In this document: piece after piece, positions 7,773-45,251 of the stretch
Layout: each line of letters begins with the position of its first letter
How positions within the stretch are numbered: the stretch's first letter is position 1
NCBI GenBank assembly: GCA_014240065.1
Contig: JAAZXR010000008.1
Span: 1 to 64,000 of the forward strand
Source: Myxococcales bacterium
GTDB lineage: Bacteria; Myxococcota_A; Polyangia; Nannocystales; Nannocystaceae
Direction: 5' to 3'
DNA length: 64,000 nt
The notes under the pieces: model-generated
Told to the model about the DNA's origin: nothing
Database searches by the model: none
Seen by the model: the letters and a program-made list of their open reading frames with translations, nothing else
Translations under genes and position numbers: made by a program

Positions 7773-7773
7773 T

Positions 7774-8049
7774 CGCGAGACGGTCGCATACGTCGACGAG
7801 CGAGGACGCATCGGCCACGCGTGTTGGCTTGACGAAGAGGTGCTGCGGGTGCCGATCATGATTCGCGCGCGGCAATTGGAGGCCGCAGCGGTGGACACGC
7901 GCGTCTCCACGGTCGATCTCCTGACGACGCTGACGGAATTGACCACCGGGAAGATCCTCCCGACCGATGGCCGCTCGCCGCTGAAAATTAACCGTGGTGA
8001 GGAGCTCAGAGATCGCCCTGTCTTCGCACGCGCACACTATGACGGGAGA
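7774..8049 (+). pseudogene. Relic of a sulfatase: C-terminal fragment only
   Basis: Between the metzincin stop and the next gene, plus frame 1 encodes a recognisable piece of the alkaline-phosphatase-like sulfatase fold. GRIGHACWLDEEVLRVPIM corresponds to the conserved His...Leu-x-Glu-Glu-x-x-Arg-Val-Pro stretch, VSTVDLLTTLTELTTG to the RVSTVDLLPTLLELAG stretch, and RPVFARAHYDG follows. The N-terminal half with the formylglycine motif (C/S-x-P-x-R) is absent, there is no start codon or ribosome-binding site, and the frame runs on into antisense sequence of the esterase gene. I read it as the remains of a deleted gene. Confidence 0.6.
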
Positions 8050-9120
8050 CTAGTTGGCGAGGAACTCTGCGATCGCGGATCGAACAGACGGGGTCACGCC
8101 CGCGTCATGACCCGCACCCATGACCTTGTAGTGGACCACATCTCCTCCGAGGTACTGGAACTCGACCAAGTTTGGGTCATTCGGATCCACGGCTCCCGCG
8201 CCGGGATCGATCGGCGGTCCGGACTCACCGAAGTGCTGCGCCCAAATATACGTGCTCTCCTCGGCGGCGATAAACACATATCCGGCGACGCCGGCACCAC
8301 CGCTGTAGGGGATGATCCCGTCTTCCGTTCCGCTCACGTTGCAGAGTCGGCGGCCGAGGACCGGGGTCGTCGCGGTGTCGTAGGCGTTGCCCCCCGTGGG
8401 ATCGTAGTAAAACTCCCCGTCGCGATACTGGAGGTCATTGAGCGGCGACACGATGGTCACCGCGTGTCGGAAGGTGTCCCCCTCAAGCTCGATGAGGAGT
8501 CGGTTCACCAGCCCGCTCCCGTTGGAGTTGCCGAGCACAGCGATGTCACCGTCGTCCACGTTGGTGTGGGTCTTCAAGAACGCGATCAGCTCGCGCATGA
8601 AATCCACGTCGGGGGCCTTGGAGGCCTCGTAGTTCAGGTTCCAGCTGTTGAGATATCCCTGGGGTGCGACCCGGATATGCCCAGGGAGATAATCGATGTC
8701 GTTGAGCATCCCTGTGGCGTTGCCGCCGTTGCCGTGGAGCAAGATCGCCACGGGATGCGGCCCCTCCCCTGCCGGCACGTCCACGAACACCGGGCGATCA
8801 AAGTCGCTCTCTTGATCCCACGACTGGGTGATGGAGAACATCCCCGACGCGAGCGCGCCGTTGACGTCCCCATCCCCGTCGCCGTCCCCGTCTCCGTCTC
8901 CATCGCCGTCCCCGTCGCCGTCCCCGTCTCCGTCGCCGTCCCCGTCTCCGGTGGACCCCGTAGAGCCGCTGTCTTCCGTACCCGACGACGAATCATCCGC
9001 GACGTCATCGCCTCCTGCGAAGGGGTCCGCGCAACCCAGGGCGGTCGCACCATTCACGAGGAGGAGTGCCCCCACAGTCATCCGCCCCAGGCGTCGCAGA
9101 ACAATCATGCGGGTGACCAT
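8050..9120 (-). CDS. Secreted alpha/beta-hydrolase (esterase/PHB-depolymerase-like) lipoprotein
   Basis: 356 residues. A signal peptide ends in lipobox ALGC (Cys30), followed by an acidic Ser/Gly stretch and about 28 residues of Gly-Asp repeat (about 58-85). The hydrolase part has an oxyanion-hole LLHGNGGN and a nucleophile elbow GNSNG (Ser199). GTEDGIIPY carries the likely acid and GAGHDAG the likely His near the C terminus. This suits feruloyl-esterase/PHB-depolymerase-type enzymes (CE1-like), acting outside the inner membrane on an unknown ester. The start could also be the ATG at 9108. It follows the sulfatase relic, tail to tail. Confidence 0.75.
   Translation of the reverse strand: MVTRMIVLRRLGRMTVGALLLVNGATALGCADPFAGGDDVADDSSSGTEDSGSTGSTGDGDGDGDGDGDGDGDGDGDGDGDGDGDVNGALASGMFSITQSWDQESDFDRPVFVDVPAGEGPHPVAILLHGNGGNATGMLNDIDYLPGHIRVAPQGYLNSWNLNYEASKAPDVDFMRELIAFLKTHTNVDDGDIAVLGNSNGSGLVNRLLIELEGDTFRHAVTIVSPLNDLQYRDGEFYYDPTGGNAYDTATTPVLGRRLCNVSGTEDGIIPYSGGAGVAGYVFIAAEESTYIWAQHFGESGPPIDPGAGAVDPNDPNLVEFQYLGGDVVHYKVMGAGHDAGVTPSVRSAIAEFLAN
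8869..8951 (-). repeat. Hexanucleotide repeat encoding the Gly-Asp linker of the esterase lipoprotein
   Basis: About 13-14 hexamers on the plus strand alternating between CCGTCC, CCGTCT and CCGTCG, read on the minus strand as Gly-Asp. Third-base variation within the array shows selection for the dipeptide rather than recent pure slippage. Confidence 0.9.
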
Positions 9121-25573: not shown

Positions 25574-26404
25574 CTAGATCGTGAGGCCGAGGCGCTCGCG
25601 ATCCGTGAACATGCGCACCACGTTGTCCCCGAACCCGCAGGCGTTGTCGAGCAGGAGGATCTGCCCCTTCACGCCATCCATGAGGCCACTGCACAGCCCC
25701 AACGTCGCCTGCGCGACCTCGTCGGGGGACACGAAGAACTGGTCCCCGTAGAACTTCTTACAAAATGGCACAAAGTCAGGACCGAACGTGGCCTCAAGAG
25801 ACTCGGTGTCCACGGGGTTGGCGCGGATGACGTTGATGCGCACGTCCTCGGACGCAAGCTCCGCGGTCATGTAGATCATGAAGGTCTCCATGACGGCCTT
25901 GCTCACCGCGATGAAGTCGTAGCCGGGCAAGAAATACTCGGGGCCGCGCGACGACATGCCCACCGCGTAGCGCGGGAAGCGACCCGTCACCAGCTTGGCT
26001 TGCTGCAGGTAGCCCACGAAGGGCCACGCGCTGTAGTTGAGGCTACGCTTGAGCCCCTTCTTGCTCAGGTCCGAGTGGTGCTTGCTGATGTGGGCGAAGG
26101 AGACGTTGCTGATGAGCACCTCCAAGGTGTCGCAGTCGGCCTTGATCCGCTGCATCACCGCCTCGGTGTCCTCGTCGTTGGAGGCGTCCGCCTCCAAGAT
26201 CACGGGCTCTGGAGCGCCCACTTCTTTGAACTTGGCGCGGAGCTCATCCTCGTCGGCGGATCCCCAGCGGTGCGTGAGATACACCCGCGCCCCTCGTGCG
26301 CCGAACGAAAGCCCGGTGGCGAGGCCGATGCCCTTGGTGCCGCCGGTGATGAGGACCGCCTTGCCGTTCAGGTCGTTGGGGAAAATCGTGGTCGCGTCAG
26401 CCAT
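25574..26404 (-). CDS. FabL-like enoyl-[ACP] reductase, copy 2
   Basis: 276 residues. The nucleotide motif is ITGGTKGIGLATG. The catalytic region GYDFIAVSKAV has Tyr-x6-Lys, the spacing of enoyl-ACP reductases (FabI/FabL), rather than the Tyr-x3-Lys of FabG. Downstream INVIRANPVDTESL parallels the VNAVSGGAIDTDAL stretch of Bacillus FabL. It likely reduces trans-2-enoyl thioesters with NAD(P)H. Its start overlaps the stop of the preceding paralogue by 8 bases (ATGGCTGA). It is the last gene of the nine-gene cluster. The reductase assignment is by motif; another ketone or enoyl substrate is possible. Confidence 0.75.
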   Translation of the reverse strand: MADATTIFPNDLNGKAVLITGGTKGIGLATGLSFGARGARVYLTHRWGSADEDELRAKFKEVGAPEPVILEADASNDEDTEAVMQRIKADCDTLEVLISNVSFAHISKHHSDLSKKGLKRSLNYSAWPFVGYLQQAKLVTGRFPRYAVGMSSRGPEYFLPGYDFIAVSKAVMETFMIYMTAELASEDVRINVIRANPVDTESLEATFGPDFVPFCKKFYGDQFFVSPDEVAQATLGLCSGLMDGVKGQILLLDNACGFGDNVVRMFTDRERLGLTI

Positions 26405-27227
26405 TGGAGGCCTCCTCTCCGGTCGCGCCAGGCTCCGGCGCCGGGAACAAGCGGCTTCCCAGCGTGAACATATTGTCCACGTAGGAGGCGCCCTTGTCGA
26501 GCGTGACCACCTGGCCCGACATGGAATCGAACAGGCCGCTGCACAGCGCGACGATGGTGTTGGCGCACTCCTCGGTGGTCACCGACCACTCGCCGAACTT
26601 CTCGCCAAGCTCCACGTTGCTGTCGCCGAAGATCTCTTTGTAGCTGTCGGTGGCCACCTGGCGCGTCCGCAGCACGTTGACCTTGGTCCCCTCCCCTTGA
26701 AGGTGTGTCGCCATGTAGCGGGCGAAACACTCGAGCACCGCCTTGGACACGCCGACGTAGTCGTAGTTCGGATAGTGCACGTCGGCGCCGTCCGAGGAGG
26801 TGGCGACCGCGTAGCTCGGATAGACACCGAAGACCTTCTTCATCCCCAGCAGGTAGTCCACGAAGGGCCACGCGCTGTAGTCGAGGCTGCGATGCAACGC
26901 TCGCGCGGTGTGGTTCATCACCCCGTCGCCCTTCACGACCATGGCGACGTTGTTGAGGAACACGTCGACCGCGTCGTGCTTGGCCTTGATCTGTTCGAGC
27001 AGCGCGAGGGTCTCCTTACCCTTGGACGCGTCGGCCTCCACGATCATGGGCGCGGGCGCCCCCGCCTCCGCGAACTGGGCGCGGATGTCGTCTTCGTTCG
27101 CCGACCCCCAGCGATGGGTGAGCCACAGCTGCGCCCCCATTCGACCAAAGGCCAGCCCTGTCGCCAGGCCGATCCCCTTGGTGCCGCCGGTGATCAACAC
27201 CACCTTGCCGTTGTAGTCCTTCATCAT
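26397..27227 (-). CDS. FabL-like enoyl-[ACP] reductase, copy 1
   Basis: 276 residues, clearly paralogous to the next gene: LITGGTKGIGLATGLAFG, LTHRWGSANEDD, ALHRSLDYSAWPFVDYL. The catalytic stretch NYDYVGVSKAVLECF again has Tyr-x6-Lys, followed by VNVLRTRQVATDSY. The C terminus carries an extra Pro/Gly/Glu-rich tail. Tandem divergent copies suggest different chain lengths or different alpha,beta-unsaturated intermediates, for example straight versus beta-methyl-branched. The start overlaps the ECH2 stop codon. Confidence 0.75.
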   Translation of the reverse strand: MMKDYNGKVVLITGGTKGIGLATGLAFGRMGAQLWLTHRWGSANEDDIRAQFAEAGAPAPMIVEADASKGKETLALLEQIKAKHDAVDVFLNNVAMVVKGDGVMNHTARALHRSLDYSAWPFVDYLLGMKKVFGVYPSYAVATSSDGADVHYPNYDYVGVSKAVLECFARYMATHLQGEGTKVNVLRTRQVATDSYKEIFGDSNVELGEKFGEWSVTTEECANTIVALCSGLFDSMSGQVVTLDKGASYVDNMFTLGSRLFPAPEPGATGEEASNG

Positions 27228-28021
27228 GATGATTCCTCGTCGCTGCCATCTGCGTCGGCGGGCGCGCCCCCGACACCGGTCGGCGTGTAGTTCTCCTGGA
27301 TCCGCGCCTGCGTCTCCGGGTTGGCGAAGCAGATCTCGTGCATCAGCGACTCCATGGTGCGCGCCTCTTCGAACGCGCGGCGTCGCGGCAGGCTCAACGT
27401 GCGCTTGAGCAGCTCGAGCGCGAAGCGTGGCTTGTCCGTCATCCGCATCGCCACCTTGCGCGCCCGCGACTCCACCTTGTCGGCGGGCTCGACGTAATTC
27501 ACGAGCGAGCGCCCCTCAAAGTGCTTGCCCTTGAAATACTGACAGCCGTACATCATCTCGGCGGAGATGTGCTCGCCGAGGATCGTCTGCAGCAGGCGCG
27601 TCGTACCCATCCCGGGGGTGAAGCCCATGTCCATGAAGTTGCAGCTGTAGCGGCTGTCTTTGCCGAGGATGACGATGTCGCAGGCGAGCCCGAACACCAG
27701 GCCTCCCCCGATGGCGTGCCCTGCCATGGCCGCGATCGTGGGGATCGGCACCTCGAGCAGCGAGCGCGTGAGCACGAGATCGTAGGGGGCCACCCGGCCC
27801 TCCGCGAGCCCCATCAACACAGCGCGATCCCCACCCGCCGAGAAAACATCGTCGAGCCCCCGGAGGATCGCCACCTTCACCTCGGGCCGGGACAGCCCGT
27901 CAAGGTGCTCGCGCAGCTCCTCCACGAAGGACTCGCTGAACGCATTGCGACCCGCGGCATCGTTCATATGCAGCGTCGCGACGCCGTGATCATCCACCTC
28001 CGTCTTGACGAACGAGCCCAT
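27224..28021 (-). CDS. ECH2-type decarboxylase of beta-branching (PksI-like)
   Basis: 265 residues, crotonase fold. GRNAFSESFVEELREHL, then IAAMAGHAIGGGLVFGLACD (oxyanion hole) and SRYSCNFMDMGFTPGMGTT closely follow the PksI/ECH2 branch, including the FMxxGFTPGMG signature. In known HCS cassettes ECH2 decarboxylates 3-methylglutaconyl-ACP to 3-methylcrotonyl-ACP, leaving a beta-methyl branch. The cluster context (ECH1 and HMG-CoA-synthase-like genes directly upstream) supports this over a beta-oxidation role. Only 3 bases separate it from ECH1. Confidence 0.82.
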   Translation of the reverse strand: MGSFVKTEVDDHGVATLHMNDAAGRNAFSESFVEELREHLDGLSRPEVKVAILRGLDDVFSAGGDRAVLMGLAEGRVAPYDLVLTRSLLEVPIPTIAAMAGHAIGGGLVFGLACDIVILGKDSRYSCNFMDMGFTPGMGTTRLLQTILGEHISAEMMYGCQYFKGKHFEGRSLVNYVEPADKVESRARKVAMRMTDKPRFALELLKRTLSLPRRRAFEEARTMESLMHEICFANPETQARIQENYTPTGVGGAPADADGSDEESS

Positions 28022-28024
28022 GAA

Positions 28025-28831
28025 TCAGCCCTCCCCCCGACGCGATGGGAGGCGCTCGAACCACGACGGCGACTCACCATTGAGGAATCCGCGGATCGCG
28101 GTGATGGTCTCAAGCTCGAGCAAGTCCGCGTTGGTCTGCGAGGCGCCGAGCCGCGCCGCCTCCTCAAGCCCGACGCAGCCGATCTCCGCGGTGAAGGAGC
28201 GCACCTTGGCCACGGAGCGGGGGTTGGCCCGCAGCAGGCGCTTGACGGCCTCCCGCAGCGACTTCTCTTGCGCCGCGGTGTGCGGCACGAGGCGGTCGAC
28301 CAAGCCGAGGTGATGGGCCTCTTCTGCCTTGAGTCGAGTGCCCGACACGGCGAGCCACCGCGCCTTTTGTGGCCGTATCCGCTCGCACAAAAACGGCATG
28401 ATCATCGCGGGCATGAGCCCGAGCACCACCTCCGGCAACGCGAAGGTCGAACGCTCCGTCGCGATGATGAGATCCGAGGCGGCGGCGATGCCGATCCCAC
28501 CACCCATCGCCTCACCGTCGACCAAGGCGATCACGGCGACGCGGGCCCGGCGAATCGCGAGCAAGCTCCGGACGTAGGCCTCGATGCGCTCGGTCTGATC
28601 TTCCCCGGCGTGCGAGGTTAAAAAGCGCAGGTCCATTCCACGGCAGAAGACATCGGGGGCCTTCGACTCCAGCACCACCACGCGACAGCCGCTCGCGCGC
28701 TCGTCGGCCGCCGCGAACACCTCAAGGAGCTCTTCTAGCCCCTTGCCTGTCAACGAGACGTCACCCTCGTCATTGGGCTCAAAGGCGACCCTCCAGATCG
28801 ATCCCTCCCGCTGATCACATCGTACTCTCAT
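28025..28831 (-). CDS. ECH1-type dehydratase of beta-branching (PksH-like)
   Basis: 268 residues, crotonase fold. FCRGMDLRFL, VDGEAMGGGIGIAAASDLII (oxyanion hole), ERSTFALPEVVLGLMPAMIM and KARWLAVSGTRLKAEEAHHLG follow the PksH/CurE-type ECH1 branch. In known systems ECH1 removes water from HMG-ACP to give 3-methylglutaconyl-ACP, the substrate for ECH2. It starts at an ATG with AGGAGG upstream, 15 bases after the HMG-CoA-synthase-like gene. Confidence 0.82.
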   Translation of the reverse strand: MRVRCDQREGSIWRVAFEPNDEGDVSLTGKGLEELLEVFAAADERASGCRVVVLESKAPDVFCRGMDLRFLTSHAGEDQTERIEAYVRSLLAIRRARVAVIALVDGEAMGGGIGIAAASDLIIATERSTFALPEVVLGLMPAMIMPFLCERIRPQKARWLAVSGTRLKAEEAHHLGLVDRLVPHTAAQEKSLREAVKRLLRANPRSVAKVRSFTAEIGCVGLEEAARLGASQTNADLLELETITAIRGFLNGESPSWFERLPSRRGEG

Positions 28832-28846: not shown

Positions 28847-30085
28847 CTAGCTCAGCTCGTAGCGACGCTCCCATTCGTCGACGCCGCGCAGCACGAGCTT
28901 GCGCTGTCCTTCATAGGCCCGCGCGTAGTGTCCTTCGAATCCCTCATGCGACATCTCGAAGGTCGGGTTGTCGACGTAGGTCCCGCGCTGCCGCTCCACC
29001 TCTTCGTAACGCTCCACCGTCAACTTCGCGCGCGCGTCCAAGCGCTCTTGCATGCGCTGCGCCGCGAGCAGCTCCCGCGCCTGCGCGCCTACCTTCAAGC
29101 TATAAAACTCGGCGCACGAGCCGGAGCCGTAGGAGTACATGGAGATCCGGTCCCCCTCGTTGAGGTCGTCGCTTTGGTCGATGAGCCCCATCAAGGCGAT
29201 GAACGTCGCCGAGGTGTAGGTGCCACCAAACTGTGAATTGTAGACCAGCGAGGGCAAGGTCTTTTGCTGCCAGTGCGCGCGCGCCTCTGAGGTCTTCATG
29301 CGCTTGAAGCGACGAAGCATGGCCTTGTGCGCGCGGAAGGTCATTCCGCCGAACGGCACGTGGTAGACGTTCTTTTTGAAGTACTCGTCGTAGTCGAAGG
29401 GCTCACCCACGCGCTCCGCGAACGAGTCATACGAGCCCTCGAGCGCGTCGAGGTACCCGAACAGGCTCGTGTCCGCGTGGCCCACCTCGTGCTTGGAGGT
29501 GGGGCGATAGGTGTCCGAGATCTCTTGGGTCCAGTAGCCGTTGTGACCGAGCTCAAACTCCACCACCTTCGGCTGCGCGCTGACGAGCATGGCCGTGGCG
29601 CCCGCTCCGAGCACGTACTCCCAGGGCTTGCCGAGGTGGCTGCGACTCTGATCGGTGCAGATCACGAGCGCTTTCTTGCCCGGCCGCACCCCAGAGGCCA
29701 CCCAGTGCGCCGCCGCCATCAGGCCGCCGGTGCCTCCGTAGCACGCGTGCTTGGTCTCGAAATTGCGACAGTTCGCGCCGAGCCCCGCGTGGCGCTGGAC
29801 CCAGGTGGAGATGGGCTTACCGAAGTCCACCGAGGACTCCGTGCCCACGACGACCATCTCGATAGACCCCCGCTCCTCGCCCTCAAGCAGGGCGTTGGCG
29901 GCGTTCACCGCCATGGTGACGGGATCTTCCCACGGCGGATTCACGGAGCGGCTCGTGACCATCAGCTCCTCGAGTGGATGGGAAGGATCGGCGCCCCGCG
30001 CGTTCGCCAGCTCGGTCATGTCCAAGGACATGGAGCAGGGGTAGGCGGTGATTTTTTCGATGCCGACGCGCGAGGGAGTTGTCAT
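28847..30085 (-). CDS. HMG-CoA synthase-like enzyme of beta-branching (PksG-like)
   Basis: 412 residues from the ATG at 30085, with AAGGAG 9 bases before it overlapping the fabG stop codon. Catalytic residues of the HMGS fold are present: Glu83 (GTESSVD), nucleophile Cys115 (ETKHACYGG) and His242 (VYHVPFGGM). In HCS cassettes this enzyme adds acetyl from acetyl-ACP to a beta-keto acyl-ACP, forming a tertiary alcohol at the beta carbon. A mevalonate-pathway HMGS is the alternative, but ECH1 and ECH2 directly downstream favour branching. Confidence 0.88.
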   Translation of the reverse strand: MTTPSRVGIEKITAYPCSMSLDMTELANARGADPSHPLEELMVTSRSVNPPWEDPVTMAVNAANALLEGEERGSIEMVVVGTESSVDFGKPISTWVQRHAGLGANCRNFETKHACYGGTGGLMAAAHWVASGVRPGKKALVICTDQSRSHLGKPWEYVLGAGATAMLVSAQPKVVEFELGHNGYWTQEISDTYRPTSKHEVGHADTSLFGYLDALEGSYDSFAERVGEPFDYDEYFKKNVYHVPFGGMTFRAHKAMLRRFKRMKTSEARAHWQQKTLPSLVYNSQFGGTYTSATFIALMGLIDQSDDLNEGDRISMYSYGSGSCAEFYSLKVGAQARELLAAQRMQERLDARAKLTVERYEEVERQRGTYVDNPTFEMSHEGFEGHYARAYEGQRKLVLRGVDEWERRYELS

Positions 30086-30098
30086 GCGTTCGCGCTCC

Positions 30099-30845
30099 TT
30101 AGGTGCTGTAGTCGAGGCCACCGGTGACGGGGATCACCTGTCCGTTGATGAACGCGGCGTCTCTCGAGGCCAAAAACACCGTGATCTTCCCGAACTCCTC
30201 CACGGTCCCCATGCGCCCCTTGGGGACGGGGCAGTACTGCTTCCAGTAGGCCTTGGCCTGCTCCGGCATGCTCTCGCGGGTCATGTCGGTGTCGAAGAAT
30301 CCGGGCACGAGCACGTTGGCCGTGATGCCGCGGCGCCCGTACTCTTTGGCGATGGACTTGGTGAGCCCGTGGAGCCCGGCCTTGCTCGCCGCGTAATTGG
30401 ACTGCCCGCTCCCACCATCAAAGATCACCGACGACACGTTGATGATGCGCCCGAAGCGGTTGCTCATCATGTGCTGCACGAAGTGGCGACACACATAAAA
30501 CGGCCCCGAGAGGTTCGTGGCGATGACCTTGTCCCACTCGGCGTTGTCCATGGACACGAGCAGGTTGTCGGCGTTGACGCCGGCGCAGTTCACGACCACC
30601 TCGACATTCTCAAAGTCGTCGATCACCGCGTCCCCTACCCGCTCCACGGCGCTCGCGTCGGCCACGTCGAGGGCGTAGCTCTGCACCTTCGCGTCGGGGC
30701 GAATCTCCTTCGCTCGCGCGATCACCTTGGCCGCGGCGGCCTCATTTCGAACGTAGGTGAACGCCACGTCGTGGCCGGCGCGGACGGCCTCGAGCACGAT
30801 CCCCGCGCCGATTCCCCTCGAGCCTCCAGTAATAAAAAAGTTCAT
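30099..30845 (-). CDS. fabG: 3-oxoacyl-[ACP] reductase, FabG type
   Basis: 248 residues, standard length. NADPH motif GGSRGIG near the N terminus, NCAGVNADNLL, SSVIFDGGSGQSNYAASKAGL with Tyr-x3-Lys, and a C-terminal GGLDYST. It reduces beta-keto-acyl-ACP to the 3-hydroxy form. It sits between the ketosynthase (12 bases upstream) and the HMGS-like gene, so it likely serves this cluster and not primary fatty-acid synthesis. Confidence 0.9.
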   Translation of the reverse strand: MNFFITGGSRGIGAGIVLEAVRAGHDVAFTYVRNEAAAAKVIARAKEIRPDAKVQSYALDVADASAVERVGDAVIDDFENVEVVVNCAGVNADNLLVSMDNAEWDKVIATNLSGPFYVCRHFVQHMMSNRFGRIINVSSVIFDGGSGQSNYAASKAGLHGLTKSIAKEYGRRGITANVLVPGFFDTDMTRESMPEQAKAYWKQYCPVPKGRMGTVEEFGKITVFLASRDAAFINGQVIPVTGGLDYST

Positions 30846-30857
30846 GGTGGTGTCCTG

Positions 30858-32162
30858 CTAGACGGAAGAGGGATCGAAGCGGCGATACAAAGAGCAGCAG
30901 TTGAGCCCGCCAAAGCCGAAGGAGTTCTTCAAGATCGTGTTGATCTCGAAGTCTTGCGACTCGTTGGCGCAGATGTCCAGGTCGATCTCCGGGTCGAGGT
31001 TGTCCACATTGATCGACGGGTGCAGCTTGTTGTGCTTCATCTGCATCATCGCCGCGACCGTCTCGACCACGGGCGCCGACCAGCAGGTGTGACCGAGCAT
31101 GGACTTGGGCGCGTTGATCTTCAGCTTGTGAGCGTGGTCGCCAAACGCCGTCTTGATGGCGTTGATCTCCGACTTGTCGCCGAGCGGCGTGGAGGTCGCG
31201 TGGGCGCACACAAAGTCCACCTCTTCGGGGCGCACCTCCGCGCGACGCAGCAGCCGGGCGATGGTGCGGGCTTGCCCGTCAGTGGACGGGCTCGGGAGGT
31301 GGCTGCCGTCGGCGGTGGCGGTGCACCCGAGCACCTCCGCGTAGATGTGCGCGCCGCGCTCGAGCGCGTGATCGAGGCGCTCGAGCACCAGCGCGCCGGC
31401 GCCGTGGGACGGCACGAAGCCCTCGCGGTTGAGGTCGTAGGGGCGGCTCGCCTTGGCGGGCGTCTCGTTGAAGCTCTCGATGGTGATGGCGCCCATGAGC
31501 GCCATGGCGTGGACGCCCATCGCGCTGAAGTCGAGCACCGATCCCACGCACATCACAGCGTCATGATCGTGGTGTCGAATCTCGTCGATAGCGGCGCGCA
31601 GGGCCATGTTGGCGCTCGCGCACGCGCCGCCCATGGTGTAGGCCGCGCCCTGCCACCCGAGCAGCTCGGAGACGGTGCCCGCGTGATCCGTGTCGAGCAT
31701 CAGCAACGCCGCCATCGAATCGATGTAGTCGGGATCGTCTTCGCGGAAGGTGATGAAATTTTGGGTCAGGTAGCGCTCGTTGAGGTTGTGGCCGCCCACC
31801 AGCACGCTGCGACGGGTGGAGTCAAAGCTCTCCTCCTTGTCGAGGCCCGCGTCGAGCCACGCGTCCGCCGCGACCATGGCGGAGATCCGCGTGGAGAACG
31901 GCGCCTTCTTGACGAGCTTGTTGAGCGATTTGCCCATCGGCTGCGAGAGTCGCTCCCGGAGCCCCGCCAACTTCACCTTCCAGTCGTACTGCGAGAGGTC
32001 ACCACCGACCTTGGAGTAGACCCCGGGCTGGTCGATCCAGCTCCACTTGGAGATCGCCGACTTGCCCTCGATGAGGTTGCCGTAAAACGTGTCTAGGTTG
32101 TCACCGATGGGGGTGTTGATCCCCATCCCAGTGATTACTACTCGCGATTGATTCGAATACAT
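30858..32162 (-). CDS. Beta-ketoacyl-ACP synthase, FabF-like / PksF-type
   Basis: 434 residues, a complete KAS fold. The predicted triad is Cys181 (GGACASANM), His321 (CAHATSTPLGD) and His358 (KSMLGHTCWSA, with Lys353). The GHTCWSA and HATSTPLGDKSEINAIK stretches resemble the KS of HCS cassettes, which decarboxylates malonyl-ACP to acetyl-ACP. Those enzymes commonly have Ser in place of the nucleophile; here Cys is kept, so real condensation is also possible. It might do both: elongation and supply of acetyl-ACP. The next gene, fabG, starts 12 bases on. Confidence 0.85.
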   Translation of the reverse strand: MYSNQSRVVITGMGINTPIGDNLDTFYGNLIEGKSAISKWSWIDQPGVYSKVGGDLSQYDWKVKLAGLRERLSQPMGKSLNKLVKKAPFSTRISAMVAADAWLDAGLDKEESFDSTRRSVLVGGHNLNERYLTQNFITFREDDPDYIDSMAALLMLDTDHAGTVSELLGWQGAAYTMGGACASANMALRAAIDEIRHHDHDAVMCVGSVLDFSAMGVHAMALMGAITIESFNETPAKASRPYDLNREGFVPSHGAGALVLERLDHALERGAHIYAEVLGCTATADGSHLPSPSTDGQARTIARLLRRAEVRPEEVDFVCAHATSTPLGDKSEINAIKTAFGDHAHKLKINAPKSMLGHTCWSAPVVETVAAMMQMKHNKLHPSINVDNLDPEIDLDICANESQDFEINTILKNSFGFGGLNCCSLYRRFDPSSV

Positions 32163-32180: not shown

Positions 32181-32714
32181 CTATTCTTCTAGGTTAAAGA
32201 CCTCGTAGACCGCGAGGGCGCGGATGTCATCTCCGACGACCACCTGCCCCGCGCAGCTCGAAACGTAGTCGCTCTCTTCCAAGGATTTGGCGATGAGATC
32301 GACCCTCTCTCCGGGACGAACCGCCCCTTGAAACATGGCGTGCGTCACCTTCAAAAGGCGTACGCGCCGCGGCGCGTCGCGCTCGTCCACCTCGACCCGA
32401 CGCGTGGCCAAAAGATGCTGCAAGCAAATGCCGAGCTGTCCGATCGCCTCAAGCAACAGCACGCCTGGATACACCGGGTCGCCGGGGAAGTGGCCCGCGA
32501 AGACTGGGTCGTCTTCTTTGACGCTCAGAAATCCACGCACGCACCCTTGCTCAAAGTCCACGAGCGAGATTCCGTCGACGAGGCGCATGGGATCCCGATG
32601 GGGCAACATGCGCTCGACCGCCTCCACACCCAGCGACACCTCGCGCGTGGTCGTGGCGTCCGGCTGAAACAGCGGGCGCTTTCGGCCGGCACGGATGGTC
32701 TTCTCGAGGGTCAT
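32181..32714 (-). CDS. FabZ-like 3-hydroxyacyl-[ACP] dehydratase
   Basis: 177 residues, hot-dog fold. MLPHRDPMRLVDGI, then GHFPGDPVYPGVLLLEAIG holds the His and Glu of the FabZ active site. VLLLEAIGQLG replaces the common VLIxEAMAQ. The N-terminal 30 residues are an extension. It makes trans-2-enoyl-ACP from the 3-hydroxy form. The start follows the acyltransferase stop after one base (TGATATG), so translation is coupled. Confidence 0.85.
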   Translation of the reverse strand: MTLEKTIRAGRKRPLFQPDATTTREVSLGVEAVERMLPHRDPMRLVDGISLVDFEQGCVRGFLSVKEDDPVFAGHFPGDPVYPGVLLLEAIGQLGICLQHLLATRRVEVDERDAPRRVRLLKVTHAMFQGAVRPGERVDLIAKSLEESDYVSSCAGQVVVGDDIRALAVYEVFNLEE

Positions 32715-32715
32715 A

Positions 32716-33714
32716 TCAAAAGGGGTCCGTTGATGATGGGCGGGCGGTCGCCGGACTCGCGCTGCTCGCCAGAATCTTCGACACGACCTCGGAGAGGTGA
32801 TCGGTCACCTCGTCTCGAGCGTCGGTGTGGAACTTGGCGTTCTTGATCCACTTACGGTTCATCAAGTTGTAGAGCACCTTCATGGGGCCGACCTCGATGA
32901 GCGTGACATCTGGATATCTCCCCACGAGGTGGTCGACGGTCGAGCGCCAGAGCACCGGGGAGTGTACGTGCGTAGACAAGAGCTCAATAAAGTCGTCGCG
33001 CGTCGGTCGCTCGAGCTCTCGCCCGAGGCGATTCGGGAAGTAAGGCAGGTTTGGCGCGTGAAATTCGACGGTTTCGAGCACGCGGCGGAACCGCTCTCCG
33101 ACCGGCGAAAAACTCGACGCGTGCATCGGCACTTGACGCTCGATCACCACCGGCTGGCCAAAGAGCTCATCCTCCACTCGCCGCATGACCTCCTCCACCG
33201 CCGCTTGGTCGCCCGCGACCACGTGCTGTCGGGGAGAGTTGAGGTTGACGATCTCCACGAGACCCACCTTCGCCTCACCGACGGTGTCCACCACCTCCCG
33301 CAGCTCTTCGAGATCCACCGGCTGAATCGACGCCATGAACCCCCGCGGACCCTCGTCGTAGGCCTCACCGCGCGCCCGAACGGCGAGCAGCGCGTCTTCG
33401 AACGAGACCGCCCCGATGTGCACGAGGTGGTTCCACTCCCCGAGCGAAAGCCCCGCCGACAATTCCGCGGAGACCCCGTGCGCCTCCATGGTCCGCAGCC
33501 ACATGTGGTTGGCGAGGAACACCCCTACCTGCACGTCGACGTTGCGGGCGAAGGCTCGCTCCGCGCCTTGGTCAAAGTGCGCGAGGACATCAAAATCGAT
33601 CAGCTCGGAGGCGCGCGAAGCGAGCGCGCGATTCTCCGGGCTCAACGCGATCATCTTCGAGAGCAGCCCCGAGTATCTCGAGCTTTGGCCGGGGAACAAA
33701 AATGCGCGTGTCAT
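32716..33714 (-). CDS. Discrete acyltransferase, FabD-like (malonyl-CoA:ACP)
   Basis: 332 residues from the ATG at 33714, with GGAGG 6 bases ahead; in-frame extension to 33849 has no protein-like character. LFPGQSSRYSGL gives the N-terminal Gln, GLSLGEW the nucleophile Ser (GLSLG instead of GHSLG also occurs in true FabD proteins), and VPMHASSFSPV the catalytic His. It loads malonyl, or another acyl unit, onto an ACP. As a free-standing AT it parallels PksC in trans-AT systems. First gene of the cluster. Confidence 0.82.
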   Translation of the reverse strand: MTRAFLFPGQSSRYSGLLSKMIALSPENRALASRASELIDFDVLAHFDQGAERAFARNVDVQVGVFLANHMWLRTMEAHGVSAELSAGLSLGEWNHLVHIGAVSFEDALLAVRARGEAYDEGPRGFMASIQPVDLEELREVVDTVGEAKVGLVEIVNLNSPRQHVVAGDQAAVEEVMRRVEDELFGQPVVIERQVPMHASSFSPVGERFRRVLETVEFHAPNLPYFPNRLGRELERPTRDDFIELLSTHVHSPVLWRSTVDHLVGRYPDVTLIEVGPMKVLYNLMNRKWIKNAKFHTDARDEVTDHLSEVVSKILASSASPATARPSSTDPF

Positions 33715-34220
33715 GCGTTCCTCCATCGCTCGCTCGACCGGGGTGACGGGCGACGCTCCGTGAAATCCATCGCCTCTCGCGACCCCGCGGAGGCTTCGCG
33801 GCGCCAACGACCTCCTCGGGTCACAATTTCGCACGCGACAGGCGCGCATGACCGGGAACTAGGAGGCGGAGTGCAAAGGCGCCCGCGTCGATCTGGCTGG
33901 GGTTGAAGCATGGGGAAATCCCAGGGATTCCTGCGGTGACTACCGTCCCATGCGGCGCTTGTCATCCAAATCTTTAAGGATCGCGCGGAGCCACACGTGG
34001 GTGCGTGGTATGCGCGGTTCTCGGTCTGTGGCCGCTGAAGGCAGGTTGGAAACCGCTCGGCCGCTGGCCGGCCGCAAGGAGGCTCGGCCTGCCTGTCTGT
34101 GCCGGGCGCTTCGGGCAGCTCTTTGGGGCGATCTTCGAAGATTCGCCTCGCGACTTCGCCTCGCGACTTCGCCTGCGCGCGTGATATGCGCCATGACATC
34201 TACCGCTGTAAACCACGCTG
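33715..34220. other. 506-bp intergenic region upstream of the lipid/polyketide cluster
   Basis: No gene is supported. It holds a 12-base perfect palindrome ATCTTCGAAGAT (34131-34142) and 2.5 copies of the 13-mer TTCGCCTCGCGAC (34142-34174). An AT-rich spot (about 33966-33976) lies about 250 bases before the acyltransferase start. The cluster promoter must lie here or within the TolC gene. No acyl carrier protein gene (DSL motif) is visible in any frame. Confidence 0.6.
34142..34174. repeat. 13-bp tandem repeat, 2.5 copies
   Basis: TTCGCCTCGCGAC at 34142-34154 and 34155-34167, then the first seven bases again. It adjoins the palindrome at 34131-34142. Confidence 0.85.
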
Positions 34221-35681
34221 CTAGTCCAAAACGCTGGTGTCCCCCGTCGCGAACTCCAACCTCGCCTGGGCCTCGAGCAGATCGAGGCGATTTCGGACCA
34301 AGGCCAGCGCCGCGTCGACCCGGTCAAACTCCGAGTTGATCACGTCGGTCGTGGTGGCCGTGCCGTTGGCGTAGCGCACACTCATCACGCGGTAGGCCTC
34401 CTCCGCGGACGCCTTGCCCCGCTCGTTCGCGTCGAGCGACGCCTCCGCGCGCGCGCGCGTCTCGTAGGCGTTGACGATCTCCAGCGTCACCCCGCGACGA
34501 AGCTGCTCACGGGTGGAGCTGGCGCGCTCGCGGTTGGCCTTGAGCTCCTCCACCCGCGCGGAGTTCACCACCGCCACATCCAACGACCATGAGACGGAAG
34601 CGCCGAGCGCCCAGCTTTGGTTCCACTCATTCGCCAGCGGGAAAAATCGGCGGTTGGGATTGGCGTACACCGCCTCGCCGAAGGCCGCGACCCTCGGATA
34701 GTACTCTGCGCGACGCGCCTTGATAGAGGCCTCCGCTTGCTCCACGTTGGCGCCGAGCGCCGCGAGCTCTGGTCGGTCCGCCAACCCGCGCGCCACGGTG
34801 GCCTTCAAGTCTTCCCGCGCTCCGTCGCGCTCCGGCGGGATCATCACGTCGTCACCGATCTGAAAATCCATCTCGAGGTCCTCCCCCATGAGCACGGCGA
34901 GGGTTCGCTGCGCTACCCGTTCCACGGCGCGGGCGCCCTCGAGGCTCGCCTCGGTGCGCGCGACCAAGGCGTCGATGCGCATCACGTCCGCCGGCGACAT
35001 CACGCCGGCCCTCACGCCGACCTGCGCGTCCTTGAGTCGCGCCTGCGAGCGCGCGAGCGAGGCCTCCCCCACGGCCACCTGCGCCCGCGCACGCAGCCAG
35101 CCGTAGTAGGCGACCCGCGCGTCTGTGGCCACGGTGCGCATCTCCGCGTCCCGTTGAAACTCCGCGGCGCGGCTCCCGGCTTTGCCGGCGCTCAGCGACG
35201 GGATCAAGCGCAGCAGCCAATCGCTCACCGGGAGGCCGAGGGTGGCGTTCAACGAATACTGGTTGAGTGGGATGTCAAACGAGACGTCTCCCACCACCGC
35301 CATCGCCATGTCGTCGATGGGGATGCCGCTCTCCACTTGGCTCAAGCGGGCGTAGCTGGCCTCCAAATTTAGCGCGGGTGTGAACGACTTTCGCAGGGCG
35401 TCCACCTGAGCCACCGCCGCCCGCAGCTGGGCGCTCGCTTGCGCGATGGTCGGACCGCTCTCGACCGCTCGACGCGCGGCGTCGTCCGCGGTGAGGCCAC
35501 CTGGTACGACGGCCAGCGCCTCTGCGATCGGATCGGCGCCGCCGCGGGTGGATGCGGGGGGCGGCTGCAGGTTTTGGACGGGCCTCGTCGCTCCCCCCTC
35601 CATGGGCGGGGCGACCACGTGCTGCATCCCCACCGCGCCCGCCAACAAACTCAACCTCAAAACGACGGTGCTCGCGAACAT
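34221..35681 (-). CDS. TolC-family outer-membrane efflux channel protein
   Basis: 486 residues. A signal peptide is followed by a Pro/Gly-rich linker to about residue 60. Two OEP-type repeats follow, each with a long heptad-bearing helix pair and beta strands (FTPALNLEASYARLSQVESG; YYPRVAAFGEAVYANPNRRF; ASVSWSLDVAVVNSARVEEL). The C-terminal VRYANGTATTTDVINSEF is the typical second-repeat helix turn. It would form the outer-membrane channel of a tripartite exporter or type I system. No inner-membrane pump or adaptor is adjacent. It could export the product of the downstream cluster; that is a guess from position. Confidence 0.85.
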   Translation of the reverse strand: MFASTVVLRLSLLAGAVGMQHVVAPPMEGGATRPVQNLQPPPASTRGGADPIAEALAVVPGGLTADDAARRAVESGPTIAQASAQLRAAVAQVDALRKSFTPALNLEASYARLSQVESGIPIDDMAMAVVGDVSFDIPLNQYSLNATLGLPVSDWLLRLIPSLSAGKAGSRAAEFQRDAEMRTVATDARVAYYGWLRARAQVAVGEASLARSQARLKDAQVGVRAGVMSPADVMRIDALVARTEASLEGARAVERVAQRTLAVLMGEDLEMDFQIGDDVMIPPERDGAREDLKATVARGLADRPELAALGANVEQAEASIKARRAEYYPRVAAFGEAVYANPNRRFFPLANEWNQSWALGASVSWSLDVAVVNSARVEELKANRERASSTREQLRRGVTLEIVNAYETRARAEASLDANERGKASAEEAYRVMSVRYANGTATTTDVINSEFDRVDAALALVRNRLDLLEAQARLEFATGDTSVLD

Positions 35682-35841: not shown

Positions 35842-36990
35842 ATGGACATCAAACTCATCGAAGTGCCCCTCTCCGACAAGCACCTGCTGCGTCGGTTCAT
35901 CCAGGTCCCGCGCTACATTCATCGCGAGCACTGGCCGAATCCACAATGGGTCCCGCCCCTGTCCATCGAACGCAAGATGTTCTTCGATCCGGCCAAGCAT
36001 CCGGTATGGCGCCACCTCCACGCGCGCTTGTGGATCGCCAACGACGGTCTCCGCGACATCGGCCGGGTGTCGGCCGCGGTCGACCGCGATCACATCGAGC
36101 ATCACGGCGAAAAGTGCGGATTCTTGGGCACCTTCGAGTGTCCCGACGACCCCGCGCTGGCGCGACACCTCTGCGACACCGCCGAGGGCTGGCTCGTCGA
36201 ACAAGGCATGGACAAGGTGATCGGCCCGACCGCGATGAACTCCAACTACGAGTGGGGGTGCATGATCGAGGGGTTCGAGCGTGAACCCGGCATCAACATG
36301 CCCTACAACCCCCCCTACTATGCGCCCTTGTTCGAGCACTGCGGCTACGCCAAAGCCAAAGATCTCTACCAGTGGGGCTTTGACGTCCAGACCCCCACCC
36401 CACCCCGCATCGCCCGCATCGCCGACCGGGTGAAAAAACGCGACAAGATCTCCATCCGCAACCTCGACACCTCGCGGTGGGACAAAGAGGTGCGCATGGC
36501 CCACGACATCTACAACGCCGCCTGGGAGAAAAACTGGGGGTTCATCCCGCTCGACAAGACCGAGTGGAATCATATCGCCGACGATCTCAAGCTCGCGCTT
36601 GAGCCCTCGCTCGGGCTGGTGGCCGAGGTGGACGGGCGCCCCGTGGGGCTCGCGCTGTCCGTGAAGAACCTCAACCCCATCTTGAAGCAAATGGACGGCC
36701 GCCTGCTCCCCTTCGGGCTGCTCCGCATGCTGTGGGAGCTGAAGGTGAAAAAATCCGTGAACACCGGCAGGCTCGTCTTGCTCGGTATTCGACCCGAGTA
36801 TCGGCGTCGAGGACTCGACGTACTCTTGATGGTCGAGACCCACCGCGCGGCCCAAAAAATTGGCTACACCTTCGGCGAGCTTGGCTGGACCTTGGAAGAC
36901 AACGACTTGATCAATAAGCCCATTCAAATGTTCGGCGCCGAGCGCATCACGACCTACCGCGTGTTCGAGAAAGAGCTCTCGCGCGGATGA
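35842..36990 (+). CDS. GNAT-like N-acyltransferase family protein
   Basis: 382 residues from the ATG at 35842. The N-terminal half (FIQVPRYIHREHWPNPQWVPPL, GPTAMNSNYEWGCMIEGFE, PPYYAPLFEHCGYAKAKDLY) belongs to a widely distributed uncharacterised family. The C-terminal half looks like a GNAT core: GLVAEVDGRPVGLALSVKNL and LVLLGIRPEYRRRGLDVLLM, the latter resembling the acetyl-CoA pyrophosphate loop R/Q-x-x-G-x-G/A. No substrate is known. Its stop overlaps the next start (ATGA), so the epimerase-like gene is coupled to it. Confidence 0.75.
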   Translation: MDIKLIEVPLSDKHLLRRFIQVPRYIHREHWPNPQWVPPLSIERKMFFDPAKHPVWRHLHARLWIANDGLRDIGRVSAAVDRDHIEHHGEKCGFLGTFECPDDPALARHLCDTAEGWLVEQGMDKVIGPTAMNSNYEWGCMIEGFEREPGINMPYNPPYYAPLFEHCGYAKAKDLYQWGFDVQTPTPPRIARIADRVKKRDKISIRNLDTSRWDKEVRMAHDIYNAAWEKNWGFIPLDKTEWNHIADDLKLALEPSLGLVAEVDGRPVGLALSVKNLNPILKQMDGRLLPFGLLRMLWELKVKKSVNTGRLVLLGIRPEYRRRGLDVLLMVETHRAAQKIGYTFGELGWTLEDNDLINKPIQMFGAERITTYRVFEKELSRG

Positions 36991-38069
36991 GGGCCCTCGT
37001 CACCGGCGCGAGTGGGTTCATCGGCAGCCACCTCGCAGAACGCCTGCGCAAGGATGGACACGAGGTGCGCGCCATGGTGCGCGCGACCTCCAGCCGCGCG
37101 AACTTGGAGCAGGCCCTCGTCCAAGGGGTGACGCTGGGGATCGCGAGCCTCTCCGATCCCGATGAGATCAAAGACGTGATCGACGGGATCGACATCGTCT
37201 ATCACTGCGCCGGGATGACGGCCGCCTTCGACTCCAAGCCGCTTGAGGAGGTGAACGCGCAGGGGACCGCCCGCATTTTTCAAGCGATCGAGCGCTGCGC
37301 GAACCCGCCGAAGCGGGTGGTGCTGGTGTCGAGTCTTGAAGCCGCCGGGCAATGCGACCCGAACATCGCGCGGCGTGAATACCACGCGGTCTGCCCACAT
37401 ACGCGCTACGGGATCAGCAAGCTCCACGGCGAGCACGCCGCGTACGAGGCCGCCCAGCGAGGCATGGCGGAGGTCATCATCGTCCGACCACCCATCGTCT
37501 ACGGCCCGCGTGACAAGGACGTCTTCCAGATGTTCCAGGCGGCACGACACGGGCTCATCGGCCAACCGGGGCTGCGCGCCGCGCCAGTCTCCATCGTGCA
37601 CGTGGCAGACCTGGTCCGCGGCATCTCCCTCGCCGGCGCGAAGGGGACGCCCGTCCCCGTCGACCCCGACGCGCACGTCCTCGCCGGTGGCGGACTCGCG
37701 ACCACTGTGATCTCCAACGAGCACGCGCACGCGGAGGGTCAAGGCATCTACTACTTCGGCGACGGGGGGGTGCACACCACCACGTCATTTTGTGAAGAGA
37801 TGGTGCGCGCCTTCGGTCGCCGCCCCGTCACCCTCAAGATCCCCGCGGCGGGCATGTGGGTCGTGGGCGCCGCGACCGAGGCTGTGGGGAGACTCCGCGG
37901 CAAAGTGCCAGCGCTCAATCTCGACAAGGTTAAAACGAGCCTCGGGACGGGGTGGTTTTTTGATCACAGCAAGGCGGCGAGCGAGCTCGAGTACACGCCG
38001 GAGTACGACGTCAAGCGCGGCGTCGAGACCACGATCACGTGGCTGCGCGGCGCAGGTTGGCTCCGCTGA
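36987..38069 (+). CDS. Extended SDR: NAD-dependent epimerase / 3-beta-hydroxysteroid dehydrogenase-like
   Basis: 360 residues. Rossmann motif VTGASGFIGSHLAERL at the N terminus, DIVYHCAGMTAA, VVLVSSLEAAG, catalytic RYGISKLHGE (Tyr-x3-Lys) and RPPIVYGPRDKD. This is the extended SDR layout shared by sugar epimerases and 3-beta-HSD/sterol decarboxylase-type enzymes. The position of VFQMFQAARHG after the active site leans to the latter. It overlaps the GNAT-like gene by 4 bases. Sterol biosynthesis is known in Nannocystineae, but a link is speculative. Confidence 0.8.
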   Translation: MRALVTGASGFIGSHLAERLRKDGHEVRAMVRATSSRANLEQALVQGVTLGIASLSDPDEIKDVIDGIDIVYHCAGMTAAFDSKPLEEVNAQGTARIFQAIERCANPPKRVVLVSSLEAAGQCDPNIARREYHAVCPHTRYGISKLHGEHAAYEAAQRGMAEVIIVRPPIVYGPRDKDVFQMFQAARHGLIGQPGLRAAPVSIVHVADLVRGISLAGAKGTPVPVDPDAHVLAGGGLATTVISNEHAHAEGQGIYYFGDGGVHTTTSFCEEMVRAFGRRPVTLKIPAAGMWVVGAATEAVGRLRGKVPALNLDKVKTSLGTGWFFDHSKAASELEYTPEYDVKRGVETTITWLRGAGWLR

Positions 38070-43478: not shown

Positions 43479-45251
43479 TCATTTGGCGTGGAGCTGCGTC
43501 TGCGCGGCCGCCCAGGCCTTCACCGCGGCCACAGAGGCCTGCATGGCCTGCACGTCGATGGCGGGCGCCGCATTCCACAGCGCCGGCGCGGCGCCGTGAT
43601 GAATCACGAGCGACTCGATCTCCGAAGGATCGACGCCCGCGGGGAGCTCGATGGCCTGACGCAGCCCCGCGTCATGCGGGAGTTCGGTCAGGCTGACCGG
43701 GAGCACGACCTTCGCCCCATCGATCACCACCTCGGCCGTCGCGCTCGCCTCTTGTGCGGTCACCTCGAGCGCGCCGGGGATGTGGTGCCAGTCCGACTTG
43801 CCCTCGTGGTCTGTCAGCCCCACCAAGAGCGTCGGTCCTCCGCCGACGTCCGCGTCTGGCGTCCCGCTGGGCTCGCCCCAGCCGCTGATCGTCTGCACGT
43901 AGGGCAAGACTCGATTCCACACGTAGTCCGAGACGTGGGTGGGGTTGCAATAGCTCATGTAGTCCTTGGCGCCGTTGGGGAAGAACAGCTGGTTCTTCAC
44001 GGCGTTGTACCCGAAGCTGCCGATGTCGGCGTCCGCGTAGGGGTAGCCGCCGTCTGGCCCGCCCGCGTCACCGCAAGGCGAGTGCCGACGCCCCTGGGTG
44101 TGCCCGATTTCGTGGACGAAGGTCTCTTTCACGGAGGTCTCCACCACCTCGACCTCCATGCCCTCTTCACCGATCAGGTCGGTGTTCCATCGACCCACGG
44201 CCACGCGGCTGCCCGCGTTGTTCATGGTCGGAGAGCCAGGGATGTCGATGGCCTGACCCGCCACGATGCTCCCCCCGCCGCCGGGGCCGCCGTCGCACGG
44301 CCGCACGAGCCCGTAGTAGTACTCCCCCGCGGGGGCGTTGTCTTGGAAGCGAAGCTGGGACAGCGCGTTCAAGATGCTGTTGAACCCGGTCATGCTCTGC
44401 GTCCACGTGATCGGCTGGCGCACGTTCATGTAGACGCGGTCCACGGGGTTGTAGGACTTGAGGTACTCCGCCATCGCGATCTCATCGTCGGGCGACACGA
44501 CCGGCGCGGGCAGGCATCCGGCGCCGAGATCGTGGAACACGGGGACGAGCGTCACGCTCACGAAGTGATCATCCGATTCGATCCCCACGAGCGCCGGCAC
44601 GAGCGGCGCCTTCGTGGCGCCGAACACCGGCTGGGACTCGAGCGCCGGATCCGTGTCGTAGAGGGTGACTTGAAAATTCATCCCCGGTCGGAAATAGCTC
44701 TTCGACAGCGGCACGTTGATCGCCGACGAGTAGACCTCTTCGCTCGACGGTCCATTGATCATCACCTCGCCCCCGAGCACCTCCTCGGGATCATTGGGAT
44801 AGGTAAACTTCAGCTCGAATCCCACCTCGCGCGGCGTCCACCCCGGCTCGGTGTCCACGAGCACCCGCATCAAGGTCTGTCGATTCTCGAGCAACACGGT
44901 CGGCCGGCCGCTCGCGTCCACCCACTGCTCCCCGTCGGCGATGGGCACCCGCACTCCCTGATTGGCGTAGACGTTCGTGATGGCCACGCCGCGCGCGTCG
45001 AAGCGCTCGGGCGGCGGATCGCCGTCTCCGTCTCCGTCTCCGTCTCCGTCTCCGTCTCCGTCTCCGTCGCCCGCGGTCGCGCTCCCTTCGCCCCCCTCGG
45101 TGCCTCCATCCTCGGAGCTCTGGGTCGTCGCGCCGGTCTCGTCGTCTCCGGCGCTCGCGCCAGCGCTCACCTCCACGACATCGTCACCACCGCACGCAGT
45201 CGGAAAAAAACAAAGACCAAGCGCAAGGGTGGATAAAGCGAAGCGTCGCAT
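43479..45251 (-). CDS. Secreted metzincin-type metalloprotease lipoprotein
   Basis: 590 residues from the ATG at 45251. The signal peptide leads to a likely lipid-modified Cys20 (FFPTAC), then a Ser/Gly/Asp spacer and a Gly-Asp repeat (about 61-78). The first 250 residues are beta-rich and non-catalytic. The zinc site is HEIGHTQGRRH (about 380-390), followed by SPCGDAGGPDGGYPYADADIG and KDYMSYC as Met-turn. This order resembles M66/StcE-like or M43-like secreted proteases, but the family is not fixed. It is not a close paralogue of the 5886 gene. Confidence 0.8.
   Translation of the reverse strand: MRRFALSTLALGLCFFPTACGGDDVVEVSAGASAGDDETGATTQSSEDGGTEGGEGSATAGDGDGDGDGDGDGDGDGDPPPERFDARGVAITNVYANQGVRVPIADGEQWVDASGRPTVLLENRQTLMRVLVDTEPGWTPREVGFELKFTYPNDPEEVLGGEVMINGPSSEEVYSSAINVPLSKSYFRPGMNFQVTLYDTDPALESQPVFGATKAPLVPALVGIESDDHFVSVTLVPVFHDLGAGCLPAPVVSPDDEIAMAEYLKSYNPVDRVYMNVRQPITWTQSMTGFNSILNALSQLRFQDNAPAGEYYYGLVRPCDGGPGGGGSIVAGQAIDIPGSPTMNNAGSRVAVGRWNTDLIGEEGMEVEVVETSVKETFVHEIGHTQGRRHSPCGDAGGPDGGYPYADADIGSFGYNAVKNQLFFPNGAKDYMSYCNPTHVSDYVWNRVLPYVQTISGWGEPSGTPDADVGGGPTLLVGLTDHEGKSDWHHIPGALEVTAQEASATAEVVIDGAKVVLPVSLTELPHDAGLRQAIELPAGVDPSEIESLVIHHGAAPALWNAAPAIDVQAMQASVAAVKAWAAAQTQLHAK
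45019..45072 (-). repeat. Pure hexanucleotide (CCGTCT) repeat encoding a Gly-Asp linker
   Basis: Eight or nine nearly identical hexamers, far purer than the arrays at 6029 and 8869. Near-identical units suggest recent expansion by slippage. Confidence 0.9.

Follow-up and report, generated by a model that had tools for sequence, protein, structure and literature searches.

The window, the whole stretch of 64,000 nucleotides analysed here, carries a run of nine genes on its minus strand in the order acyltransferase (AT), dehydratase (DH), ketosynthase (KS), ketoreductase (KR), HMG-ACP/CoA synthase homologue (HCS), two crotonases of the ECH1 and ECH2 types and two short-chain dehydrogenase/reductases (SDR) predicted to be enoyl-ACP reductases (ER). 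Intergenic distances range from -23 to +18 bases, and the KS comes third in the run. The AT (32716-33726) is FabD-like and keeps its serine (GLSLGE), the equivalent of Arg117 and its histidine; the gene may be longer, with a start at 33849. It is followed by a FabZ-like DH (32181-32714), the KS (30858-32162), a FabG-like KR with S-Y-x3-K kept (30099-30845) and the HCS with its ACYGGT motif kept (28847-30121). The catalytic roles given to these residues in the AT (malonate-binding arginine), the KR (Ser-Tyr-Lys) and the HCS (ACYGGT) are presumed. The ECH1-type crotonase (28025-28831), a predicted HMG-ACP dehydratase, had PRK07112 as its best NCBIfam model, with a score under the cut-off, and the ECH2-type crotonase (27224-28021), a predicted methylglutaconyl-ACP decarboxylase, scored over the cut-off of PRK07110, named 'polyketide synthase' (268 vs. 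215 bits). We take PRK07110 and PRK07112 to be the PksI and PksH families, respectively. The predicted enoyl-ACP reductases 1 (26397-27227) and 2 (25574-26404) are both SDRs with Tyr-x6-Lys, spaced as in FabI-type enoyl reductases; Tyr-x6-Lys was also found in 13 of 13 SDRs checked across the relatives. The gene calls of the window include no open reading frame above 805 amino acids. Several predicted proteins elsewhere in the window (5886-9081 and 43479-45176) contain long GDGDGD repeats.

The KS open reading frame fills 30858-32162 in the window translation and encodes 434 amino acids that matched both ketoacyl-synthase domains of Pfam, N and C, as a full beta-ketoacyl synthase does. Cys181, His321 and His358 were found by alignment at exactly the numbers given in the preliminary description and Lys353 is also present, so the condensing set C-H-K-H (C181, H321, K353, H358), as in FabF (KAS II), is intact. 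The nearest family model was PRK07103, the NCBIfam model for PksF-type KSs (351.2 bits, cut-off 445), and the fabF model came second (324.3 bits, cut-off 493.75). Because the KS falls under both cut-offs, it cannot be clearly assigned to PksF or to FabF. When PRK07103 was run against 14 control genomes, its sole match over the cut-off was in Bacillus subtilis. A search of 377 genomes of the phylum with NF005490 returned no member over the cut-off at an E limit of 1e-110, a limit that would hide the window KS too.

Active-site residues were compared among groups of KSs that were hand-chosen from the searches and the tree: a close clade of 25 (counting the window KS and L079, which lies on the same contig as L045), a wider circle of 11, 77 FabF sequences and 29 PksF-type sequences. 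Cysteine occupied the position of Cys181 in 25/25, 11/11 and 77/77 KSs of the first three groups, and serine occupied the active site in all 29 PksF-type KSs, 19 of which scored over the NCBI family cut-off. The expectation that KSs of HCS cassettes usually carry serine was therefore borne out, in agreement with the available part of PMC7618002. Retention of the cysteine had been thought to set the window KS apart; instead, cysteine is the rule throughout its own clade, where all 36 aligned members, the window KS included, carry it.

The stretches GHTCWSA and HATSTPLGDKSE had been read as signs of likeness to decarboxylating KSs, and the groups gave this reading no support. Trp361 of GHTCW was present in 25/25 sequences of the close clade, 1/11 of the wider circle, 0/77 FabF and 0/29 PksF-type KSs; GHTCW is a signature of the clade to which the window KS belongs. 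At the HATSTP site of the window KS, 18 of the 29 PksF-type KSs have HGTGS, and a few others come closer, with HGTSTPLGD (L166 and L167) and HATSSPLGD (L060), all three in KSs with serine. AHATSTP was present in 16/77 FabF sequences and, being common there, does not discriminate PksF-type from FabF. Median identity of the window KS was 31% to PksF-type KSs (n = 29) and 33% to FabF (n = 78). The label 'PksF-like' is thus not upheld by motifs or identity, and kinship with the PksF cassette rests on the tree and on the shared partner genes. A similar tryptophan at the same place occurs in Bacteroidota KSs outside the clade (GHECW in L130, L135, L138, and L139), where it apparently arose separately.

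The main KS tree had 64 rows, comprising up to 57 of the 148 aligned KSs, FabB and FabF of E. coli and four modular polyketide synthase (PKS) KS domains as the outgroup; a quick earlier tree had 82 rows. The clade with cysteine (support 98/88) and the clade with serine (100/99) fall together on one side of a branch (99/95), apart from FabF, FabB and the flexirubin-type KSs. The window KS stands beside the Ser (PksF) clade, yet outside it. The 15 FabF rows form one side of another branch (95/94), and the window KS is not among them. The clear placement with FabF that had been named as part of what would refute the preliminary description was thus not what the tree gave, although a grouping of the Cys clade on the FabF side, at a cost of 7.2 log units, was not rejected by the AU test (p-AU 0.116). 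A single change suffices to account for the switch between cysteine and serine on this tree, so the link of cysteine to complete operons counts as one evolutionary event and not as repeated evidence.

A KS of at least 49% identity was found in 12 of the 377 phylum genomes, the window genome included, and HCS accompanied it in 12/12. The order AT-DH-KS-KR-HCS-ECH1-ECH2-ER-ER is kept in 9 of the 11 other phylum loci (L040-L050); the exceptions are L046, with the AT at the end, and L048, without AT, ECH1 and ECH2 in the stretch. Every one of the 11 loci has a single KS and an ACP with DLGANSLDIVE or a near form, located between the two ERs in L044-L050 and after the second ER in L040-L043. The GANS motif is also present in most ACPs found beside Ser-type KSs. 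An alpha-oxoamine synthase (AOS) gene is part of 9/11 loci and is absent from the window operon. Three operon AOSs scored under the cut-offs of the Spt models, and their best score, also under the cut-off, was with bioF. No description of this operon was noticed in searches of the open-licence literature.

A scan of the genome collection gave at least 584 matches, of which the best 80 were kept. Among these best 80 were Nannocystis pusilla (L067, 75%), Myxococcota, Polyangia and Nitrospinae metagenome-assembled genomes (MAGs), Yersinia pekkanenii and Kibdelosporangium banguiense, and versions of the system are thus present in three named isolates; some of the relatives are MAGs with labels (e.g., Lokiarchaeota, Saccharibacteria) that could stem from misbinning. 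The plasmid collection contained only KS matches of 32-37% identity. In Yersinia pekkanenii the operon is compact (L077:9418-17311; DH-KS-KR-HCS-ECH1-ECH2-ER-ACP-AT) and no AOS was found in it; two Pseudonocardiaceae loci (L080 and L206) have the order ACP-KS-AT-KR-HCS-ECH1-KR-ECH2-ER-DH-AOS and a KS with cysteine. L051 and L052 have two adjacent wider-clade KSs beside an ACP and a DH, the second KS with an altered GHxGSAAS motif, and large PKS-like open reading frames lie near the KS pair in L051.

The surroundings of the KSs were compared for 33 distinct Cys-clade loci and, within 20 kb, for 16 of the 29 Ser-type sequences. The 33 loci include the window and L078, whose frameshifted KS fragment was kept out of the trees and residue groups; they exclude L079 and the FabF-like L081 and L082. 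DH and KR were both in the stretch in 27/33 Cys-clade loci, HCS in 25, ACP in 26, AOS in 15 and ECH1, ECH2, and ER in 21 each, counts in which several stretches are short contigs and the partner scan missed ATs that are visible in L042 and L045. Of the eight loci in which no HCS was seen, two are on 9-kb contigs and one is on an 8-kb contig. Around the Ser-type KSs, DH, ER, and AOS were found in 0/16 loci, HCS in 10/16 and KR matches, which may be modular PKS domains, in 3/16. Modular PKS KS domains were present in 5/33 Cys-clade loci vs. 11/16 Ser-KS loci. The partner genes of the Cys-clade KSs fit an elongating enzyme. Two Pseudomonas-genus loci (L076 and L208) have DH-KS-KR-ACP with a KS of the same clade and no HCS found in 20-21 kb, a cut-down form of the system that lacks branching genes; a KS there can hardly serve an HCS and should therefore condense. 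L121 is like these two, with a modular PKS adjoining.

The window genome comprises 235 contigs and is 97.67% complete. It has four KAS-type matches, all with cysteine: the window KS, a FabF on contig C180 and a pair from another locus with KS and KR genes, on C160; no Ser-type KS was among them. The FabF on C180 stands beside ACP, KR and AT genes. The HMGS-family profile had one strong match, the operon HCS, and two others of 20-24 bits. The operon itself has no ACP, and a system without an ACP was considered; it was discarded once an ACP on contig C11 proved to be 72-78% identical to the ACPs of L040-L043. Six ACP-domain matches were detected in the genome, none of them in an open reading frame of modular PKS size and one in a long open reading frame that encodes a reductase-ligase-ACP-acyltransferase fusion. 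A 1543-aa fusion of reductase-like, AMP ligase, ACP and acyltransferase parts lies on the same contig as the window, about 1.7 kb past its end (L055:7688-12319), with an epimerase and then a DAGK-type lipid kinase downstream. A close orthologue of the operon AOSs was not found in the window genome, where the best matches were 35-36% identical. Among the AOS candidates, L064 (a fragment) resembles glycine C-acetyltransferase and L065 resembles BioF, both under the model cut-offs; for L063 the bioF score was slightly above the Spt-model scores, all under the cut-offs.

We consider it reasonably likely that the window KS is a condensing enzyme, the sole KS in a type II acyl synthase that is complete in itself and has HMG-type beta-methyl branching, and that this KS also makes acetyl-ACP. 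The condensing residues are kept, no other KS is in the operon and the other KSs of the genome all have cysteine, so one KS for both elongation and acetyl-ACP is the economical reading, and a single KS serving the whole cluster is plausible. With no Ser-type KS and one strong HMGS match in the genome, the window KS would be the likeliest source if HCS needs malonyl-derived acetyl-ACP; it probably supplies the acetyl-ACP. We infer condensation, decarboxylation, the order of the steps and the product as follows. The AT would load malonyl on a dedicated AcpK-like ACP (here that of contig C11), and the KS would decarboxylate malonyl-ACP to acetyl-ACP and condense the latter with further malonyl-ACP to a beta-ketoacyl-ACP. 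From there KR, DH, and ER could take the beta-ketoacyl-ACP to a plain saturated chain, or HCS, ECH1, ECH2, and ER could introduce a beta-methyl branch; acetoacetyl-ACP would be converted by the latter enzymes to 3-methylcrotonyl-ACP and isovaleryl-ACP. The gene set thus predicts saturated chains with beta-methyl branches, the first ketide giving isovaleryl-ACP. In many relatives an AOS of the same operon may next take the acyl-ACP, and the frequency of this gene suggests release as an amino ketone.

The cassette-like features of the operon could also mean that the KS only decarboxylates malonyl-ACP for HCS, as a PksF-type KS0 that kept its cysteine by descent, with the primary FabF doing the elongation. 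The best tree does set the window KS beside PksF (99/95) and the ACP is AcpK-like. According to the available part of PMC12560621, BonF, a known KS0, decarboxylates malonyl on two donor ACPs and not on three modular ACPs that were tested, which implies that pairs of KS0 and ACP can be specific. We regard this explanation as improbable, given that the condensing residues are intact in the whole aligned clade, that the DH, KR, AT, and ERs of the operon need a KS that elongates, that the Pseudomonas-genus DH-KS-KR-ACP loci lack HCS and that none of the 29 Ser-type KSs retains the cysteine.

If the KS does condense, the acetyl group could still come from elsewhere. Acetyl-ACP could be provided by another enzyme, such as a phosphopantetheinyl transferase or a KSIII acting on acetyl-CoA, or HCS could use acetyl-CoA directly. 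Within the HMG-CoA synthase family, of which HCS is part, the mevalonate-pathway members use acetyl-CoA, and the two weak HMGS-model matches in the genome (~350 aa) may be FabH-like. Such a supply, which would relieve the KS of decarboxylation, seems unlikely to us, because the ACP is of the type that accompanies Ser-type KSs; in known cassettes that type of ACP carries malonyl-derived acetyl, as the available part of PMC7618002 describes. The window KS might instead be an accessory FabF that builds ordinary straight chains and lies next to an unrelated set of HCS genes; this reading agrees with the AU result and with an identity to FabF as high as that to PksF-type KSs. We nonetheless judge it very improbable: the operon order is the same in 9/11 other phylum loci and HCS is present in 11/11, the KS has its own clade signature in Trp361 and the genome has a separate FabF beside ACP, KR, and AT genes.

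In known systems HCS branching supplements modular PKSs, and a KS unable to condense feeds it. The condensing and acetyl-supplying synthase favoured here matches the bacillaene-type HCS cassette (AcpK, PksF-PksI) in its GANS-type ACP, KS, HCS, ECH1, and ECH2, of which four of the five are in the window and the ACP is in the operons of the kin and on C11 in the window genome. Synthase and cassette share their predicted chemistry, and the window ECH2 passes the PRK07110 cut-off. In contrast to that cassette, the window KS keeps its cysteine and reaches 351 of the 445 bits of the PksF family, no modular PKS is beside the operon, AT, DH, KR, and two ERs (with AOS in many relatives) are inside it and one ACP would act as both donor and acceptor. 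Type II fatty acid synthase (FabD, FabZ, FabF, FabG, FabI, and AcpP) shares the AT, DH, KS, KR, ER, and ACP functions, and the catalytic residues that were checked are kept; the window KS, however, belongs to a separate clade, HCS, ECH1, and ECH2 are added and the operon lies apart from the fatty acid synthase genes of the genome on C180. Myxobacteria have an alternative route to isovaleryl-CoA (MvaS, AibA/B, and AibC), which also uses HMG-type chemistry to form a methyl-branched C5 unit, whereas the window enzymes would be ACP-bound, are of the HCS-cassette kind and share an operon with chain-building enzymes. The interest of the operon lies in its best reading as a type II synthase that has HMG branching built in, a variant of the HCS branching system in which the HCS functions are part of a complete carrier-protein synthase whose KS is intact and which in many relatives also includes an AOS. 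If so, it would be a leucine-independent, carrier-bound bacterial route to branched chains, would connect HMG branching with the synthesis of lipids, possibly sphingolipids, and would offer a natural test of how KS0 lost its nucleophile.

Two plus-strand neighbours, divergent to the operon and separated from it by a TolC-like gene (34221-35681), are possible partners. The first, a GNAT-type acyltransferase (35842-36990), is 34% identical over its full length to YghO of E. coli BL21 (E 2e-75), and the second, an NAD-dependent epimerase/reductase (36987-38069), shares 29% identity, in a partial-length alignment, with the epimerase encoded in the BL21 sphingolipid locus. That locus, with YghO and the matched epimerase, also contains spt. 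The dihydroceramide genes named in the available part of PMC9386255 are aasR, acpR, spt, epi, and aca, and from gene order we took YghO of BL21 for the 'aca' N-acyltransferase. The pair is also beside L040, L042, and L043, with the acyltransferase alone at L041 and the epimerase alone at L067, and neither gene had a match in L044-L050. Confined in this way to the nearest kin, the pair makes a sphingolipid role of the operon suggestive for those kin only.

Sphingolipid loci (Caulobacter, E. coli B) and the pair of SgaA PKS and SgaB AOS resemble the present system in the AOS of the Spt/BioF superfamily in many relatives' operons and in the aca- and epi-like genes that adjoin the window operon and some of its nearest kin. 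They differ in that the acyl chain would here come from a dedicated type II branching synthase, not from an acyl-ACP synthetase or an SgaA-type PKS. Pseudomonas does make sphingolipids by way of a PKS and an AOS, with a different enzyme, according to the available part of PMC12134224. A more far-reaching and tentative proposal, to which we give rather less credence than to the synthase itself, is that a one-KS type II HMG synthase hands beta-methyl-branched (e.g., isovaleryl-primed or multiply branched) acyl-ACPs to the AOS for the long-chain base of a sphingolipid and that the KS with cysteine represents the ancestral state of the Ser KS0 of trans-AT PKS cassettes. The operon at L049:1858-5922 encodes two different AOSs, one with an ACP-like N-terminal stretch, together with a separate ACP.
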